A stretch of 64,000 bases of DNA from Candidatus Poribacteria bacterium. GTDB taxonomy: Bacteria; Poribacteria; WGA-4E; JAJDTR01. Made by a program: the position numbers and the translations under genes. This document shows, one piece after another, positions 13,418 to 24,793 of this stretch. The stretch is taken from NCBI GenBank assembly GCA_028820655.1, contig JAPPIK010000056.1, positions 27,880 through 91,879 of the forward strand. Reading direction: 5' to 3'. Below the pieces are notes generated by a model that saw only the letters and a list, made by a program, of their open reading frames with translations, was not told the origin of the DNA and searched no databases. Within the stretch, counting starts at the first letter, position 1, and each line of letters starts with the position of its first letter.

Positions 13418-15094
13418 ATGGCAACCCCGACTAACCAGGAACTAATAGACGAATGGCGTGAGGAACCGGCGCCTCTACTCCCTCTGCTCCATGCATTCCA
13501 CGATCGAGACGGGTTTCTCACGGAAGACGCCCTACGGGACGTGGCCGTCGGGTTAAGGATCCCTCTGGCGGACCTGTTTGGTACCGTCACCTTCTATCAT
13601 CATTTCTCCCGTGAACCTCCGGGACAGAGTGCTCCGAGGGTATGCACGGGTCCCGTATGTTGTCTAACCGGTGGACTAGAAATCCTTGAGGCGCTAAAGG
13701 ACAAAGGTGCAACGTCGATGCCGTGTGCCGGGCGGTGTGACGATGTTGTGCCTGTTCTTCGTGGGGGCTCCGTGTTGACCGGCACGAACGCGGAATCGAT
13801 AGCGCCAAAACCCTCTCCACTGCCGCCGCCAAATCCCGGCGGCATTGAGGAATGCGTCTTCGCCTCTATTCGAGAGCCCGGCAGATCCACTTTAGAAGGA
13901 TACCGGCGAACCGGGGGGTACGAAGGATTAACTCGCGCAGTAAACGAGATGAACCCAACTGGAGTCGTTGAACTCGTTGTGGATAGCGAGTTGGCTGGAC
14001 GCGGGGGCGCCGGTTTTCCCACCGGACTAAAATGGAAGTCGGTAGCGGAAGCGCCCGGCGAACCAAAGACGATTGTCTGTAACGCGGACGAAGGGGAACC
14101 CGGATGTTTCAAAGACCGCGCAATTTTAGATTACGACCCGCATGCGGTTATCGAAGGTATGACGTTGGCTGCATACGCAACCGGCGCGGAGCGCGGATTC
14201 ATCTATCTTCGATACGAATATCCTGAAACTTTCGACACCCTTGCACGCGCAATCACTGAAGCGAAAGAATCTGGATTCGTTGGCGACGGTATTCTCGAAA
14301 CCGACTTTCACTTTCAAATCCACATTCGGCGCGGCGCCGGGGCATACATCTGTGGGGAAGAAGGTTCGCTACTGAACAGTCTTGAGGGCAAACACCCGTT
14401 CCCAAGGAATCGCCCGCCCTATCCGGTGACGCATGGATTTGAGAACCTCCCGACAGCCGTCAATAATGTTGAGACACTCGTGTCCGTGCCGCAAATCCTT
14501 CGACACGGCGCGGAGTGGTATCGCGGGCTTGGGCTGATTGGCCACGCCGGCACGAAAGTAATCAGTCTGTCGGGCGACATTCAGAAGCCGGGCAACTACG
14601 AGGTACCGTTTGGACTGCCGCTCAAAACACTGCTGTATGACTGGGCGGGCGGCGCACAAAAGGGTCGCTCTATTCAGGCGGTCACTATGGCGGGACTGTC
14701 GGGCGGATTCCTTTCCGGAAATGACCTGGAAGTTACGCTAGATGAACCGAGTGTGAAGGCGAAGGGTTCAATGCTGGGCGCCGCCGGAATTATCGTGTTC
14801 GATGATAGTCGAGAAATTTTGAGCGTGGCGCACAATGCCATGGAATTCTTCGCCGAAGAATCGTGCGGAAAATGTTTCCCATGCCGGATTGGAACGCAAC
14901 GCCTCACTGAACGTTTGGCGGGAGATGCTGATCCTAAGGATTTGGAGGAATGGCGCAGGGAAGTAAGTGATATTAGCGAATCGATGAAAGCCACTAGTGC
15001 CTGCGGCCTCGGAATGGCTGCTCCACTGATTGCCGACAGCGTGATGCGGTACTTCCCGAGGCAGGTTGAGCGGCACGTTGAAGGCAATACGTGA
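13418..15094 (+). CDS. NAD-linked formate dehydrogenase beta subunit (NuoE-NuoF fusion)
   Basis: A 558-residue fusion of two complex-I-like modules. Residues 1 to about 150 are a NuoE-type 2Fe-2S domain with the four cysteines in CTGPVC and CAGRC. The rest is NuoF-type: FMN/NAD-binding RGGAGFPTGLKW, GAGAYICGEE, and the 4Fe-4S ligands in ESCGKCFPCRIGTQ plus the later SACGLG. It would take electrons from the alpha subunit and reduce NAD+. The start has no clear ribosome binding site. The alpha subunit gene starts about 50-70 bases after its stop. A hydrogenase diaphorase is the alternative, but the partner contains a molybdopterin formate dehydrogenase domain. Confidence 0.88.
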   Translation: MATPTNQELIDEWREEPAPLLPLLHAFHDRDGFLTEDALRDVAVGLRIPLADLFGTVTFYHHFSREPPGQSAPRVCTGPVCCLTGGLEILEALKDKGATSMPCAGRCDDVVPVLRGGSVLTGTNAESIAPKPSPLPPPNPGGIEECVFASIREPGRSTLEGYRRTGGYEGLTRAVNEMNPTGVVELVVDSELAGRGGAGFPTGLKWKSVAEAPGEPKTIVCNADEGEPGCFKDRAILDYDPHAVIEGMTLAAYATGAERGFIYLRYEYPETFDTLARAITEAKESGFVGDGILETDFHFQIHIRRGAGAYICGEEGSLLNSLEGKHPFPRNRPPYPVTHGFENLPTAVNNVETLVSVPQILRHGAEWYRGLGLIGHAGTKVISLSGDIQKPGNYEVPFGLPLKTLLYDWAGGAQKGRSIQAVTMAGLSGGFLSGNDLEVTLDEPSVKAKGSMLGAAGIIVFDDSREILSVAHNAMEFFAEESCGKCFPCRIGTQRLTERLAGDADPKDLEEWRREVSDISESMKATSACGLGMAAPLIADSVMRYFPRQVERHVEGNT

Positions 15095-15164
15095 TCCACC
15101 TTTCAGGGATTACGATGAGAAATGTGTCACCAAATCGCACCGGATGAAAACCGTGAGAAAACAA

Positions 15165-17897
15165 ATGGCTAAACAACCACCTGAATCTTCGAATGAAGGA
15201 AAAAAACAAAATACCATCACGCTTGACGGAGAAACAGTGAGTTTCTTGGACGGCGAGACAATTTACGAGGTCGCAACCCGCAATCGCAAGAATATCCCTA
15301 CGCTATGCTACGATTCGCGTCTTGACGCCTTCGGAGGGTGTAGACTCTGTGTCGTTGAACTTGAAGGGTCGCGCAATCCCGTTGCATCATGTACAACGAA
15401 GGCGACACCTGGCATGGCTGTCCGATCGGCGACGGAGAAAATCGAGAAATACCGAAAAACACTGCTTGAAATGGTTGTGTCTGAAAACCCTGATGTTGAG
15501 GTAGATCCGCTGCGAGGCTACGCTTCTCAAGAACTCTCGGCGCTCGCCGATCGTTACGCGGCAGGGAATGGCCGTTTCAGAGGGAAACAATCCGGTAAGA
15601 GTAATCTGGATGATACCAATCCGTTTATCCTGCGCGATTACGATCTCTGTATCTCCTGTTACCGCTGCGTGCGTGTGTGCGCCGAACAGGAGGGAGACTA
15701 TGCGATTAGCGTCATGAACAGGGGGTTTCATACACAGATTACCACGGAGTTCAACGGACTGCTGAAGGAGTCTGCCTGTACCTTCTGCGGGCAGTGCGTG
15801 CAGACATGCCCAACGGGGGCGCTCGGCGACAAGAAGGCTATGCGAGCGGTTGACCTGCCCGGAGAGATTGACAAGACTCGTACTATCTGCCCTTACTGCG
15901 GCGTGGGATGCTCGGTCGATGTACTTACCAAGAACGAGAAAATCGTTGGCATCCAGCCAGCCATGGACGGTCCGGCGAACAAAGGAGCGCTTTGCGTAAA
16001 AGGGCAATTCGCGTTCGACTTTGTTCAGCATTCGGATCGACTGACGGCGCCCCTCGTCCGCGGACGAGACGGGAAGCTGCACGAGGCGGAGTGGGATGAA
16101 GCGCTTGACCGCGCCGCCGAAGGTTTTCGAAGAGCCCGAACGAAGTACGGACGTGAAAGCGTCTATGGGGTTGCTTCCGGCCGCGCGCCGAGCGAAGCGG
16201 CTTACATGATGCAAAAGTTCATTCGCGCCGGTTTTGGAACGAATTATATTGATAACTGCAGCCGTGCCTGACACGCGCCAACGGTTGCCGGTCTGGCAGC
16301 CACAATCGGACGAGGCGCAATGTCGAACCCGCTCGTTGATATGCAGAAACCGGACGTAATTTTCTGCATCGGAACGAATATGACCGAATGCCATCCGGTT
16401 GCAGCCACGGGCATAAAGAAGGCCGTGGCACGCGGTGCAAAACTCATCGTGGCGGATCCCCGGCGAATCACACTCGCCGAGATGGCAGACCTCTATCTTC
16501 CGCTGCGAGTGGGTTCGGACTCCGCACTGCTGCTCGCCATGGCGCACGTAATCGCACGCGAAGGATTGATGGATGACGAATTTATCCGCAACCGAACGGT
16601 TCAATTCGATGACTTCTTTGAGCACATTACACAGTTCACGCCCGAGTGGGCGGAGAAGATCACGAGTGTGCCGGCAAAGGACATTGAGACCGCAGCGATA
16701 TGGTACGGTGAGGCGGACAAAGGGGCAATCTACTATACGCTCGGCATTACCGAACACATCTGCGGTGTTGAAAACGTACAATGTCTCTGCAATCTCGCGC
16801 TGATGACCGGCAACGTCGGACGAGAAGGCACCGGCATTAACCCGATGCGCGGTCAAAACAACATTCAGGGTGCTGGCGACAGCGGTGCTCTTCCCAACAA
16901 CTATCCCGGATTCCAAGCGGTAACCGATATTGCAAATCAAGAGAAATTCAGATCGCTATACGGCACGACAATCGATCTTGAAAAGGGTATAACCAAAGTA
17001 ACGGCGCTCGACCTGTGCGGCGATCAGATTCGGGCAATGCTAATCGACGGAGAGAACACCCTCCTGTCCGACCCGAATCGGGAACATTGCGAGCATGCAC
17101 TGCGCAGTCTTGATCATCTCGTAGTAATCGATATCTTCCTGACCGAAACCGCGCAACTTGCCGATGTCGTCCTGCCGGCCACCGCTTGGGCGGAGACCGA
17201 CGGGGTGCAGACGAACACCGAACGGAGAGTGCAGCGGATGCGCGAGGCGGTGCCGCCGCAGGGACAGGCAAAACCCGATTGGTGGGCCATCTGCCAGATC
17301 GCCAATCGTCTTGGGTTCAGCGGATTCGACTTTGAATCGCCCAAGGATATCTTCAACGAACTATGTCGTGTTTCCCCGATTTACGCGGGACTTGATTGGG
17401 AACGAATTGGTGCAGGCGAATACCAATGGCCCGTCCCCCATGACGACCACCCCGGCACACCGGTTTTGCACGAAGGCGAGTTCATCAATGGACGCGGGAT
17501 CTTTTCGATCGTAGACTACCGCGATCCGGCGGAAACAATCAGCGACGAATTTCCGGTTTGGTTAACCACGGGTCGCAGGCTTGCGTCTTACCACACGCGC
17601 ACGCAAACGGGCCGCGCGCAAGGCATTGATTATCTGCTATCGGAGGAGGTGCTTGAAGTACACCCCGCCGATGCATCAGAATGGGGGCTCATGGATGGCG
17701 ATTGGTGCACAATGTCCAGTCGGCGCGGTTCGGTTAAGATACGGGTAAAGAGTACAAACCGCTCGCCGCGCGGCACCGTTTTCGCCAGTTTCAGCTTCAG
17801 CGATGTACCGGTCAATATCTTGACGGGCTCCGGCTACGATCCGATTACGCACACCGCCGAACTCAAGGTTTGCCCCGTGCAGATTGAACCGCTATAA
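15165..17897 (+). CDS. fdhA: Selenocysteine-containing formate dehydrogenase alpha subunit
   Basis: One frame of 910 residues once the UGA at 16269-16271 is read as selenocysteine (residue 369). The N-terminus has a NuoG-like 2Fe-2S domain (CYDSRLDAFGGCRLC). Then come 4Fe-4S clusters CISCYRCVRVC and CTFCGQCVQTCPTG, and the molybdopterin-domain cluster CPYCGVGC...GALCVKGQ. The active-site segment reads CSRA-Sec-HAPTVAGLA, where other formate dehydrogenases have Cys or Sec. The C-terminal half contains the cofactor-binding domains, ending in the usual LTTGRRLASYHTRTQTGR and C-terminal barrel. The start is chosen at ATG 15165 (weak GAG upstream); ATG 15144 and TTG 15066 are alternatives. It oxidises formate to CO2, passing electrons to the NuoEF-like subunit upstream. 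FdhD is encoded at 56602-57456. Confidence 0.93.
16269..16271 (+). other. UGA selenocysteine codon in fdhA
   Basis: TGA lies exactly at the catalytic Cys/Sec position (CSRA-U-HAPT). The frame stays open for a further 541 codons with clear formate dehydrogenase homology, and the SECIS hairpin follows immediately. Confidence 0.93.
16272..16304 (+). promoter_or_regulatory. Bacterial SECIS element of fdhA
   Basis: Arms GGTTGCC (16283-16289) and GGCAGCC (16295-16301) form a 7-bp stem around the loop GGTCT. The loop begins 18 bases after UGA. From memory of the E. coli fdhF SECIS, both the GGUCU loop and the 18-base spacing are the same, so a SelB of the E. coli type should recognise it. Confidence 0.88.
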
Positions 17898-22600: not shown

Positions 22601-23437
22601 CTACGCGCTCGGAATTTCGATCGGCAAATCCAGCCGATCCCCCCACTCTTTCCACGACCCCAGATAGTTGCTGACCTTTGGATACCCTAGGAGTCGCAAT
22701 GCCAGATAGGCGTTGGAAGAGCGGTAGCCGCCCTGTCAGTAACACATTACGCGTTTTTCGGGCGTTATCCCCGCGGATTGATACAGTTCACGGAGCTGAA
22801 CTGCAGGCTTGAACGCCCCAGAATCATCCAGATTATTACGCCACTCGATGTGGATAGACCCGGGAATCGCTCCCCCGCGGGCGGAGCGGGCAACTCGCCC
22901 ATAGTGTTCGTCGTCGGTGCGCGTATCAAGGACGACGAAGTCAGCGTCTCCGAGCAGTTCTTGGATTGAATCCGCGTCCAAATGCGTATGAGGTTTTGTG
23001 TTCTCCGGAAAGGCGTCAACCTCCGGAGGTTCATCTGCTTGGGTGCTCACGCGTCCGCCCGCTGCGACGTACGCGTTGAACCCGCCATCCAATACATGAA
23101 CACCCTCGTGCCCCAAGTATTCGCAGAACCAAAATCCTCTAGCCGAACAGATCCCTGAAACGTCTTCATACCAAATAATGGTCTTGTTGGGATCAACTCC
23201 GCGTTGGCGCAGGAGGTAAGCGATTGTCCACATGAACGCCTTGAACGGCCTTTCACTCGTGTCATTCAGGCTGAGCGAATACAGATCCAAGTGTATCGCG
23301 CCGGGAATGTGGCCAGCGGCGTACTCGTGCGTTGGCCGCGTATCTACGATGCAAATCGATTCGTCGCCTAGTCTGTCAATTTGTGTCTTGGGTGAGATCA
23401 GCAGTTGGGGGTTGGCGTATCCTTTGTACTCGTCCAT
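22601..23437 (-). CDS. Two-domain rhodanese with in-frame UGA at the catalytic cysteine (probable selenoprotein)
   Basis: A thiosulfate/3-mercaptopyruvate sulfurtransferase of the SseA type. If it ended at the UGA at 22736-22738 it would be 233 residues and lose its active site. Read through as Sec234 the frame continues to a TAG at 22601-22603, giving 278 residues, the normal family length. The junction reads KRVMCY[21 protein letters not shown], then [18 protein letters not shown], matching the catalytic loop (YCxxGxRSS) and the C-terminal SWxEWG segment of SseA proteins. The N-terminal domain is the inactive partner ([18 protein letters not shown]). The ribosome binding site GGAGG lies 5 bases from the ATG. 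It follows serS by 45 bases in the same direction. Confidence 0.78.
22736..22738 (-). other. Predicted UGA selenocysteine codon in rhodanese
   Basis: The codon replaces exactly the catalytic Cys of the active-site loop, and homology resumes in frame right after it. A stem with arms AGGGCGG and CCGCTCT and a 3-base loop begins two bases downstream, but it lacks the GGUCU-type loop and lies closer to UGA than in fdhA, so the SECIS is unproven. Confidence 0.65.
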
Positions 23438-23482: not shown

Positions 23483-24793
23483 TCATTCTGACGCACTAGT
23501 CGAGGAAATCCGGTCGATGCCTCCCACGTACGGCTTAAGTACCTCGGGTATCCGTACCGTTCCATCCTCCTGTTGATAATTCTCAAGAATCGCGATTACC
23601 AATCGAGGCAATGCCGTGCCGGACGCGTTTAGCGTGTGAACGAACTCGGTTTTCGCGTGCGATTGACGACGAAAACGGATGTTCGCACGGCGAGCTTGGA
23701 AGGATTCGAAGTTGCTGCACGAGGAAATCTCCAGATTGTATTTCCGATCTACAGGGCCCCATAGTTCAAGATCGTAACATTTCGCTGCGGCGAACGACAA
23801 TTCGACAGAACAGTGTTGAATGACTCGGTAGGGGAGACCTAGCGCTTGTAATACATCCTCGGCATCGCGCAGCAAGGCTTCATGTTCATCATATGAATCT
23901 TCGGGAAGTGTAAACTTTACCATTTCCACTTTGTCGAATTGATGAAGGCGCTGCAACCCGCGTGTCTCCCGTCCATAGGATCCGGCCTCTCGCCGGAAAC
24001 ACGGAGTGTAAGCGACGAAATAGATCGGTAGATCTTCGGCGTCCAAAATCTCTTCGGCGAATATATTGGTGACCGGTACCTCCGCGGTCGGAATGAGAAA
24101 GAGATCGCTGTCTTCATTCTCCTCGTCCCGGTCGCAGCGATACATGTCTTCTTCGAATTTCGGTAGCTGGCCGGTCCCGGTCATTGTTCTACGATTGGCG
24201 AGAAACGGCGGGGAGATTTCGGTATAACCGTGTTTGGACACGTGCAGATCAATCATAAAATTAATCAATCCTCGCTCAAGCCTAGCGCCAAGCCCCTTAA
24301 ACAGTATGAAGTTGCTTCCGGCGATTTTTGTGCCTCGTCCGAAATCTACAATATCCAATTCTTCCGCAAGTTCCCAATGTGGTCTCGGTTCAAAGTCGAA
24401 GGTTCTCGGAGTACCCCATCGCTTAACTTCTATGTTGTCTTCCTCGCTAACTCCAACTGGAGTACTTTCATCGGGCAGGTTCGGTATCGTCAGCAACATC
24501 TCGTCAATCTGTTGCCGAAATATATTTGATTGCTTGTTCAAGCTCTTGATTTCTTGAGAGAGTTGTTTCATCTCCAAGATTTGCTCGGAGGCGTCCTGCT
24601 TGTTCATCTTGAGTTGCGCGATACCTTTTGAGATGGTATTCTGATGATGTCTGGCATTTTCTACGCCGGTGACGGCGTCGCGCCATCGACTATCCATCTC
24701 AAGGAGCTGATCCAAAGGCGCGGCCATTCTCCTTTGTTCGAGCATAGTTCGTATAGCATCAGGGTTCCGGCGAATGAACTTTAGGTCCAACAC
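23483..24793 (-). CDS. serS: Seryl-tRNA synthetase
   Basis: A 436-residue class II synthetase that attaches serine to tRNA-Ser and, in Sec-using bacteria, to tRNA-Sec. The N-terminal half has the long coiled-coil arm. Motif 2 is in [27 protein letters not shown], and the C-terminal [22 protein letters not shown] holds motif 3. The start is GTG with GGAGG 9 bases upstream. It lies downstream of the tRNA-Val/tRNA-Asp pair but is separated from it by a terminator, and directly upstream of the Sec-type rhodanese. Confidence 0.97.

Follow-up and report, generated by a model that had tools for sequence, protein, structure and literature searches.

Predicted selenocysteine rhodanese of Poribacteria with a proposed fold-back SECIS in its coding sequence

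How could selenocysteine (Sec) be inserted at the catalytic codon of an enzyme when the canonical insertion signal is missing after the UGA? The question is raised by a rhodanese gene of Candidatus Poribacteria, bacteria that are mostly sponge symbionts. The gene lies in the window, by which we mean the whole stretch of 64,000 nucleotides that was analysed. A sequence-only reading of this DNA had predicted a selenocysteine sulfurtransferase whose catalytic cysteine codon is UGA. The locus comprises the following features.

22601..23437, minus strand: tandem-domain rhodanese gene, a predicted selenoprotein gene of 278 codons with Sec at codon 234
22736..22738, minus strand: UGA (Sec) codon at the catalytic Cys position, codon 234; nucleotide index 0 corresponds to 22738
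23483..24793, minus strand: seryl-tRNA synthetase gene directly upstream, adjacent only in some families

The rhodanese frame starts with the ATG at 23437, preceded by CGGAGGATTGA as a plausible ribosome-binding site, and ends with a TAG at 22601-22603 on the minus strand. The coordinates and frame of the sequence-only reading stand, and the strand, which it left unstated, is minus (23437-22601). The sole in-frame stop is the TGA at 22738-22736, in the context CYUQGGYRSS. Past it, the same frame continues to the TAG after 278 residues. The frame as a whole has two Pfam Rhodanese (PF00581) stretches (2.2e-37, 128 bits), in keeping with the SseA-type rhodanese homology that had been claimed. The claim that UGA occupies the catalytic codon is likewise borne out, as residue 234 aligns in phmmer with the Cys of HCQTHHRS in Azotobacter vinelandii RhdA (1e0c). 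In the AlphaFold model (mean pLDDT 91.6), residue 234 directly follows strand 229-233 and precedes helix 238-249, where rhodaneses have their active loop, and the model superposes on solved tandem rhodaneses with TM-scores of about 0.8. RhdA and the Thermus rhodanese (1uar) share the fold, the two domains and the active-site position with the Poribacteria protein at about 30% identity, but have Cys where the latter has Sec. The model for the E. coli-type 3-mercaptopyruvate sulfurtransferase, NF008557, scored 103 bits against a curated cut-off of 250 bits. The seryl-tRNA synthetase gene adjoins the rhodanese gene in families f1, f2 (in part) and f3 (G023); in f4 another conserved gene takes the upstream place, so the adjacency carries no evidential weight and a functional link between the two genes was rejected.

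The conservation of the UGA argues that it is neither chance nor error. Across the 85 genomes of the phylum that were searched, 71 Poribacteria orthologues were found, of which 67 carry exactly one TGA, and an additional contig-edge copy in G018, found by the RNA model, brings those with TGA to 68. Among 70 distinct coding sequences, the catalytic codon is TGA in 66 and TGC or TGT in four, giving the TGA/Cys pairing that had been proposed as a check. Of the four Cys orthologues, three are in family f3; the fourth, from a distant member of the class, serves as the outgroup. Since TGA occurs at one codon in 66 distinct orthologues, several of them from single-contig chromosomes, it is not explained by chance or sequencing error. 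All close homologues of the rhodanese belong to Candidatus Poribacteria, and a plasmid search returned distant homologues only.

Under the standard code the frame ends at the UGA, and the list of open reading frames accordingly gives a protein of 233 aa. The gene might thus encode a 233-residue fragment that lacks the catalytic residue, or it might be decaying. This is extremely improbable given that the TGA has become fixed in tens of genomes, that dN/dS after the TGA is 0-0.31 in ten pairs, indicating purifying selection, and that the synonymous sites after it are constrained, synonymous variation being low just after the UGA and low again near the C-terminus. Reading of the UGA as Trp or Cys, through a reassigned code or a suppressor tRNA, would also keep the frame open. 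We regard such reading as scarcely credible: some orthologues, indeed several, themselves terminate with TGA, which indicates that UGA remains a stop codon in these organisms, the genome holds tRNA-Sec and selB, and the genes in which an interrupting TGA was seen are members of known selenoprotein families.

The Sec machinery of the genome is consistent with decoding of the UGA as Sec. The tRNA-Sec scores above the Rfam cut-off and is adjoined by selB and selA, SelA being named from its sequence beside selB rather than by a family-model score. The genome also encodes selD, itself with one in-frame TGA. The prediction had been made to depend on selA, selB, selC and selD, and selA, selB, tRNA-Sec and selD are all found. 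Of the 85 genomes of the phylum, 76 have a selB that exceeds the cut-off; completeness is 73-83% for the four genomes that have a TGA rhodanese but lack a full selB. Among the three f3 genomes with Cys, two retain selB and tRNA-Sec, so the Cys form does not simply reflect loss of the machinery. The window itself contains a positive control.

15066..17897 (start provisional), plus strand: fdhA selenoprotein gene, UGA at 16269-16271
16283..16301, plus strand: canonical SECIS of fdhA, GGUUGCC-GGUCU-GGCAGCC, loop 18 nt after the UGA

The earlier supposition that this genome makes Sec, drawn from fdhA, agrees with this arrangement of UGA and canonical SECIS. Against Rfam SECIS_3 the fdhA element scores 49 bits, short of the gathering score of 63. 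The standard code splits fdhA into two open reading frames. Further TGA-interrupted genes are present elsewhere in the genome. Five AhpC/TSA-like genes, two on contig C5 and one each at C4:329891-330259, C56:155225-155599 and C15:371079-371462, have one in-frame TGA apiece, in the contexts GGUTTE, GGUTAE, GVFUPFC, GAWUPFC and GTWUPNS. A second rhodanese (L008:1672-1680, contig C36) has two in-frame TGA codons, FYUSUPAEATSAR, and resembles the NF041203 rhodanese-related selenoprotein; we refer to it as the UxU rhodanese.

Taken together, the aligned TGA, the Sec machinery, the 66 orthologues with TGA and the downstream purifying selection lead us to conclude, from sequence comparison, that the Poribacteria rhodanese is very probably a real selenoprotein. 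The prediction of a selenocysteine rhodanese is upheld by the TGA/Cys pair, the machinery and the conserved remainder of the frame.

How the UGA would be recoded is less conventional. The consensus model of the bacterial SECIS places a small loop, with a G near its start, 16-37 nt after the UGA; the published criteria are a loop of 3-9 nt on a stem of 4-16 bp, a G in the first two loop positions and a free energy of -7.5 kcal/mol or lower (PMC13188914). Hairpins that agree with the loop, stem and spacing rules follow the UGA of fdhA, of the UxU rhodanese and of four of the five AhpC/TSA-like genes. In the last five the distance is 21 nt: the UxU rhodanese has a CGGGC loop 21 nt after its second UGA, and the four AhpC/TSA-like genes have a G-loop hairpin at that position, while the fifth (L154) has its best score at 13 nt. 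In the rhodanese gene of the window, no qualifying hairpin is present 16-37 nt after the UGA, and no helix whose loop starts with G is widely conserved at that distance among the rhodanese Sec genes. A weak and inconstant candidate with the loop GUUGCG, seen in 28 of 66 sequences and absent at that spacing from the window, was rejected. An Rfam scan of the rhodanese UGA region gave no match, in comparison with the SECIS_3 match of fdhA.

We scanned every pair of columns between -60 and +132 nt in the 66 Sec sequences without bias, numbering nucleotides from the U of the UGA as 0. The two longest conserved helices of the scan, H1 and H2, both lie after the UGA.

22717..22724, minus strand: 5' strand of H1, nt 14-21, CCGCUCUU
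22643..22650, minus strand: 3' strand of H1, nt 88-95, AAGAGUGG
22643..22724, minus strand: arm of 82 nt (nt 14-95) that H1 closes, predicted to form one long stem and proposed to be looped out
22619..22639, minus strand: distal SECIS-like hairpin H2, nt 99-119, GAUCGGC-UGGAUUU-GCCGAUC
22626..22632, minus strand: apical loop of H2, UGGAUYU, with almost invariant third codon positions (CTG, GAT)

H1 is a long-range helix of 8 bp (nt 14-21 with 88-95), paired in 66 of 66 sequences, and the stretch inside it folds into one long stem whose conservation is weaker. H2 begins after a 3-nt linker from H1 and consists of 7 bp (nt 99-105 with 113-119), paired in 99.6%; its loop reads UGGAUYU in 65 of 66 sequences and UGGACUU in one, with GGA invariant. 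H2 thus has a 7-nt loop on a 7-bp stem, a G within the first two loop positions, and a free energy within the published limit in 65 of 66 sequences, with a mean of -12.3 kcal/mol. Its spacing lies outside the 16-37 nt range: the loop is 103 nt from the UGA in sequence, a distance that shrinks to 21 nt (11 + 10) only with the H1 arm looped out.

Three lines of evidence bear on the reality of this fold. First, the base pairs are maintained through substitution. Pair 17/92 of H1 is C-G in 49 sequences, U-A in 13, U-G in four and never C-A, and pair 101/117 of H2 is C-G in 57 and U-A in nine. Over both helices, 99.8% of cells are paired, as against 38-54% when the strands are slid, and 22 cells show double changes versus 4.6 when shuffled, in a pair count whose control (b) favours a structure derived from the same sequences; the double changes are limited to two pairs and to few events on the tree, with eight single changes at 17/92 and two at 101/117. 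Second, synonymous nulls rarely give such helices. When synonymous codons were relabelled per column, keeping the tree pattern, none of 300 trials yielded two helices of this length, and three yielded one helix of 8 or more. Nine near-invariant codons were found among 129 conserved columns, seven of them inside H1 or H2. On the other side, H1 is in part a consequence of the conserved residues YRSS and KEW. Third, the pair H1 and H2 is confined to Sec genes among the genes tested. H1 also occurs in one Cys gene (L142), in which H2 is absent, and high-scoring matches of the covariance model occur only in Poribacteria that have the Sec gene.

Folding of single sequences agrees with this picture. 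In the Sec sequences the mean probability is 0.88 for H1 and 0.92 for H2, rising to 0.94 and 0.99 when the first 14 nt are occupied, as a model of a ribosome with the UGA in its A site; under this occlusion H1 exceeds 0.5 in 66 of 66. A longer context gives 0.79 for H1 and 0.95 for H2. The three f3 Cys genes have probabilities of 0.00 for both helices in the unoccluded fold, and the synonymous null, folded after removal of nt 0-13, has 0.09 and 0.04, against 0.94 and 0.99 for the Sec genes under the same treatment. The predicted mRNA fold with H1 and H2 after the UGA is strongly supported.

The SECIS might instead be a hairpin next to the UGA (nt 4-10 with 14-20), or a different short element of non-canonical form, with H1 and H2 serving pausing or mRNA stability. 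Consensus folding does pick the proximal hairpin, whose pairs hold in 97.8% of cells, and the codons beside the UGA are unusually invariant. The hairpin nevertheless shows no covariation and has a mean probability of 0.03 in single-sequence folding, although it competes there with H1 for nt 14-20. Moreover, its loop starts 8 nt after the UGA, within the stretch covered by a ribosome with the UGA in its A site. In view of the absent covariation and the low probability, we rejected the proximal hairpin as the likely SECIS. As no G-start-loop helix is widely conserved at 16-37 nt either, we judge this alternative as a whole to be rather improbable.

The agreement of H2 in loop, stem and energy, together with a spacing of 21 nt once the arm is removed, equal to that of the four AhpC/TSA-like genes and the UxU rhodanese, leads us to propose a fold-back SECIS. 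A SECIS displaced from the UGA, in which a long-range helix closes off 82 nt of coding sequence as a looped-out arm and presents a distal SelB-binding hairpin at normal effective spacing, is the likely arrangement. We infer that H2 would be the SelB-binding SECIS and that H1 would shorten its effective distance. After the UGA, the mRNA would comprise an 11-nt spacer, the 82-nt arm closed by H1, the 3-nt linker and the GGA-loop hairpin H2. By looping out the arm, H1 would bring H2 to an effective 21 nt from the UGA, just outside the mRNA entry of the ribosome, and SelB with tRNA-Sec would insert selenocysteine at the UGA. A tandem rhodanese with catalytic Sec234, an arm-looping H1 and a SelB-binding H2 is very probably the best joint explanation of the comparative data. 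Judged by the modelled fold, H1 and H2 look like a new SECIS architecture. We know of no bacterial SECIS that works 103 nt from its UGA. In the usual bacterial SECIS (E. coli fdhF; here fdhA and the AhpC/TSA-like genes), the loop lies 16-37 nt from the UGA, in contrast to the 103 nt of the rhodanese, with the 82-nt helical arm in between.

On the tree, the Poribacteria Sec sequences form one group with 94/94 support, beside the Cys forms, and three changes between Cys and Sec are needed when homologues from other lineages are included. Sec is also found in G221 and G358 (family f147) and in G131 (f57), with a GGC loop 17 nt after the UGA. The Sec rhodaneses L133, L135 and L136 of other lineages are homologous tandem rhodaneses and have their UGA at the same codon; they have a normal SECIS, with a GGC loop 17 nt after the UGA and no H1/H2, whereas the Poribacteria gene has H1/H2. 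These Sec rhodaneses of other lineages imply separate gains or losses of Sec on the tree. The strongest covariance-model match outside the Poribacteria Sec genes is a Cys rhodanese from another lineage (L137, G181:C52), 58% identical, in which H1 is as in the Sec genes and one pair of H2 is broken. Its RNA may be left over from a Sec ancestor, as a fossil SECIS after a change from Sec to Cys, or from gene transfer.

From the family to which the enzyme belongs, its main role is most likely to carry sulfane sulfur on selenium and pass it to a thiol. The selenolate would attack a sulfane-sulfur donor such as thiosulfate, hold the sulfur as a selenosulfide and hand it to a thiol acceptor. The Sec enzyme could instead act mainly as a selenium carrier (a perselenide donor to SelD) or as a peroxide or disulfide reductase, which we consider possible but doubtful. 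A TST-type rhodanese binds selenium 1:1 in vitro, according to a study of Azotobacter RhdA as cited in PMC9369223, and RhdA is one of the closest solved relatives of the rhodanese. A Cys two residues before Sec, which would suit a redox role, is common; it is Ser in one genus and is present in the Cys forms too, so it is no special redox partner. None of the neighbouring genes whose identity was checked is a selenium gene.

The protein kind is already known, SseA-type Sec rhodaneses having been predicted since 2005, and the RNA arrangement is the new part. A rhodanese-related sulfurtransferase selenoprotein of COG2897/SseA was predicted from the Sargasso Sea (Zhang and Gladyshev 2005, PMC1088965), with three sequences and a predicted ordinary bacterial SECIS, and again in GOS data (PMC2398784); these proteins are now listed as 'form 4, UxxG' (PMC13188914). 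The remark that metagenome surveys had suggested Sec rhodaneses is thus correct. By family and motif, the Poribacteria protein is likened to form 4, with the same Sec/Cys pairing and with UxxG present as UQGG. It differs from the Sargasso form in being fixed across most of an order and in its displaced fold-back element. Our literature search, with many subscription papers outside its reach, returned nothing on Poribacteria selenoproteins and no account of a bacterial SECIS far from its UGA.

If the proposed element is real, the 16-37 nt rule for the bacterial SECIS would change, searches restricted to that interval would overlook such genes, and a coding sequence could hold a split recoding signal. 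For the family, a little-studied group of selenoproteins now reaches most of an order whose bacteria are mainly sponge-associated, and selenium appears able to take over a sulfur-transfer active site stably.
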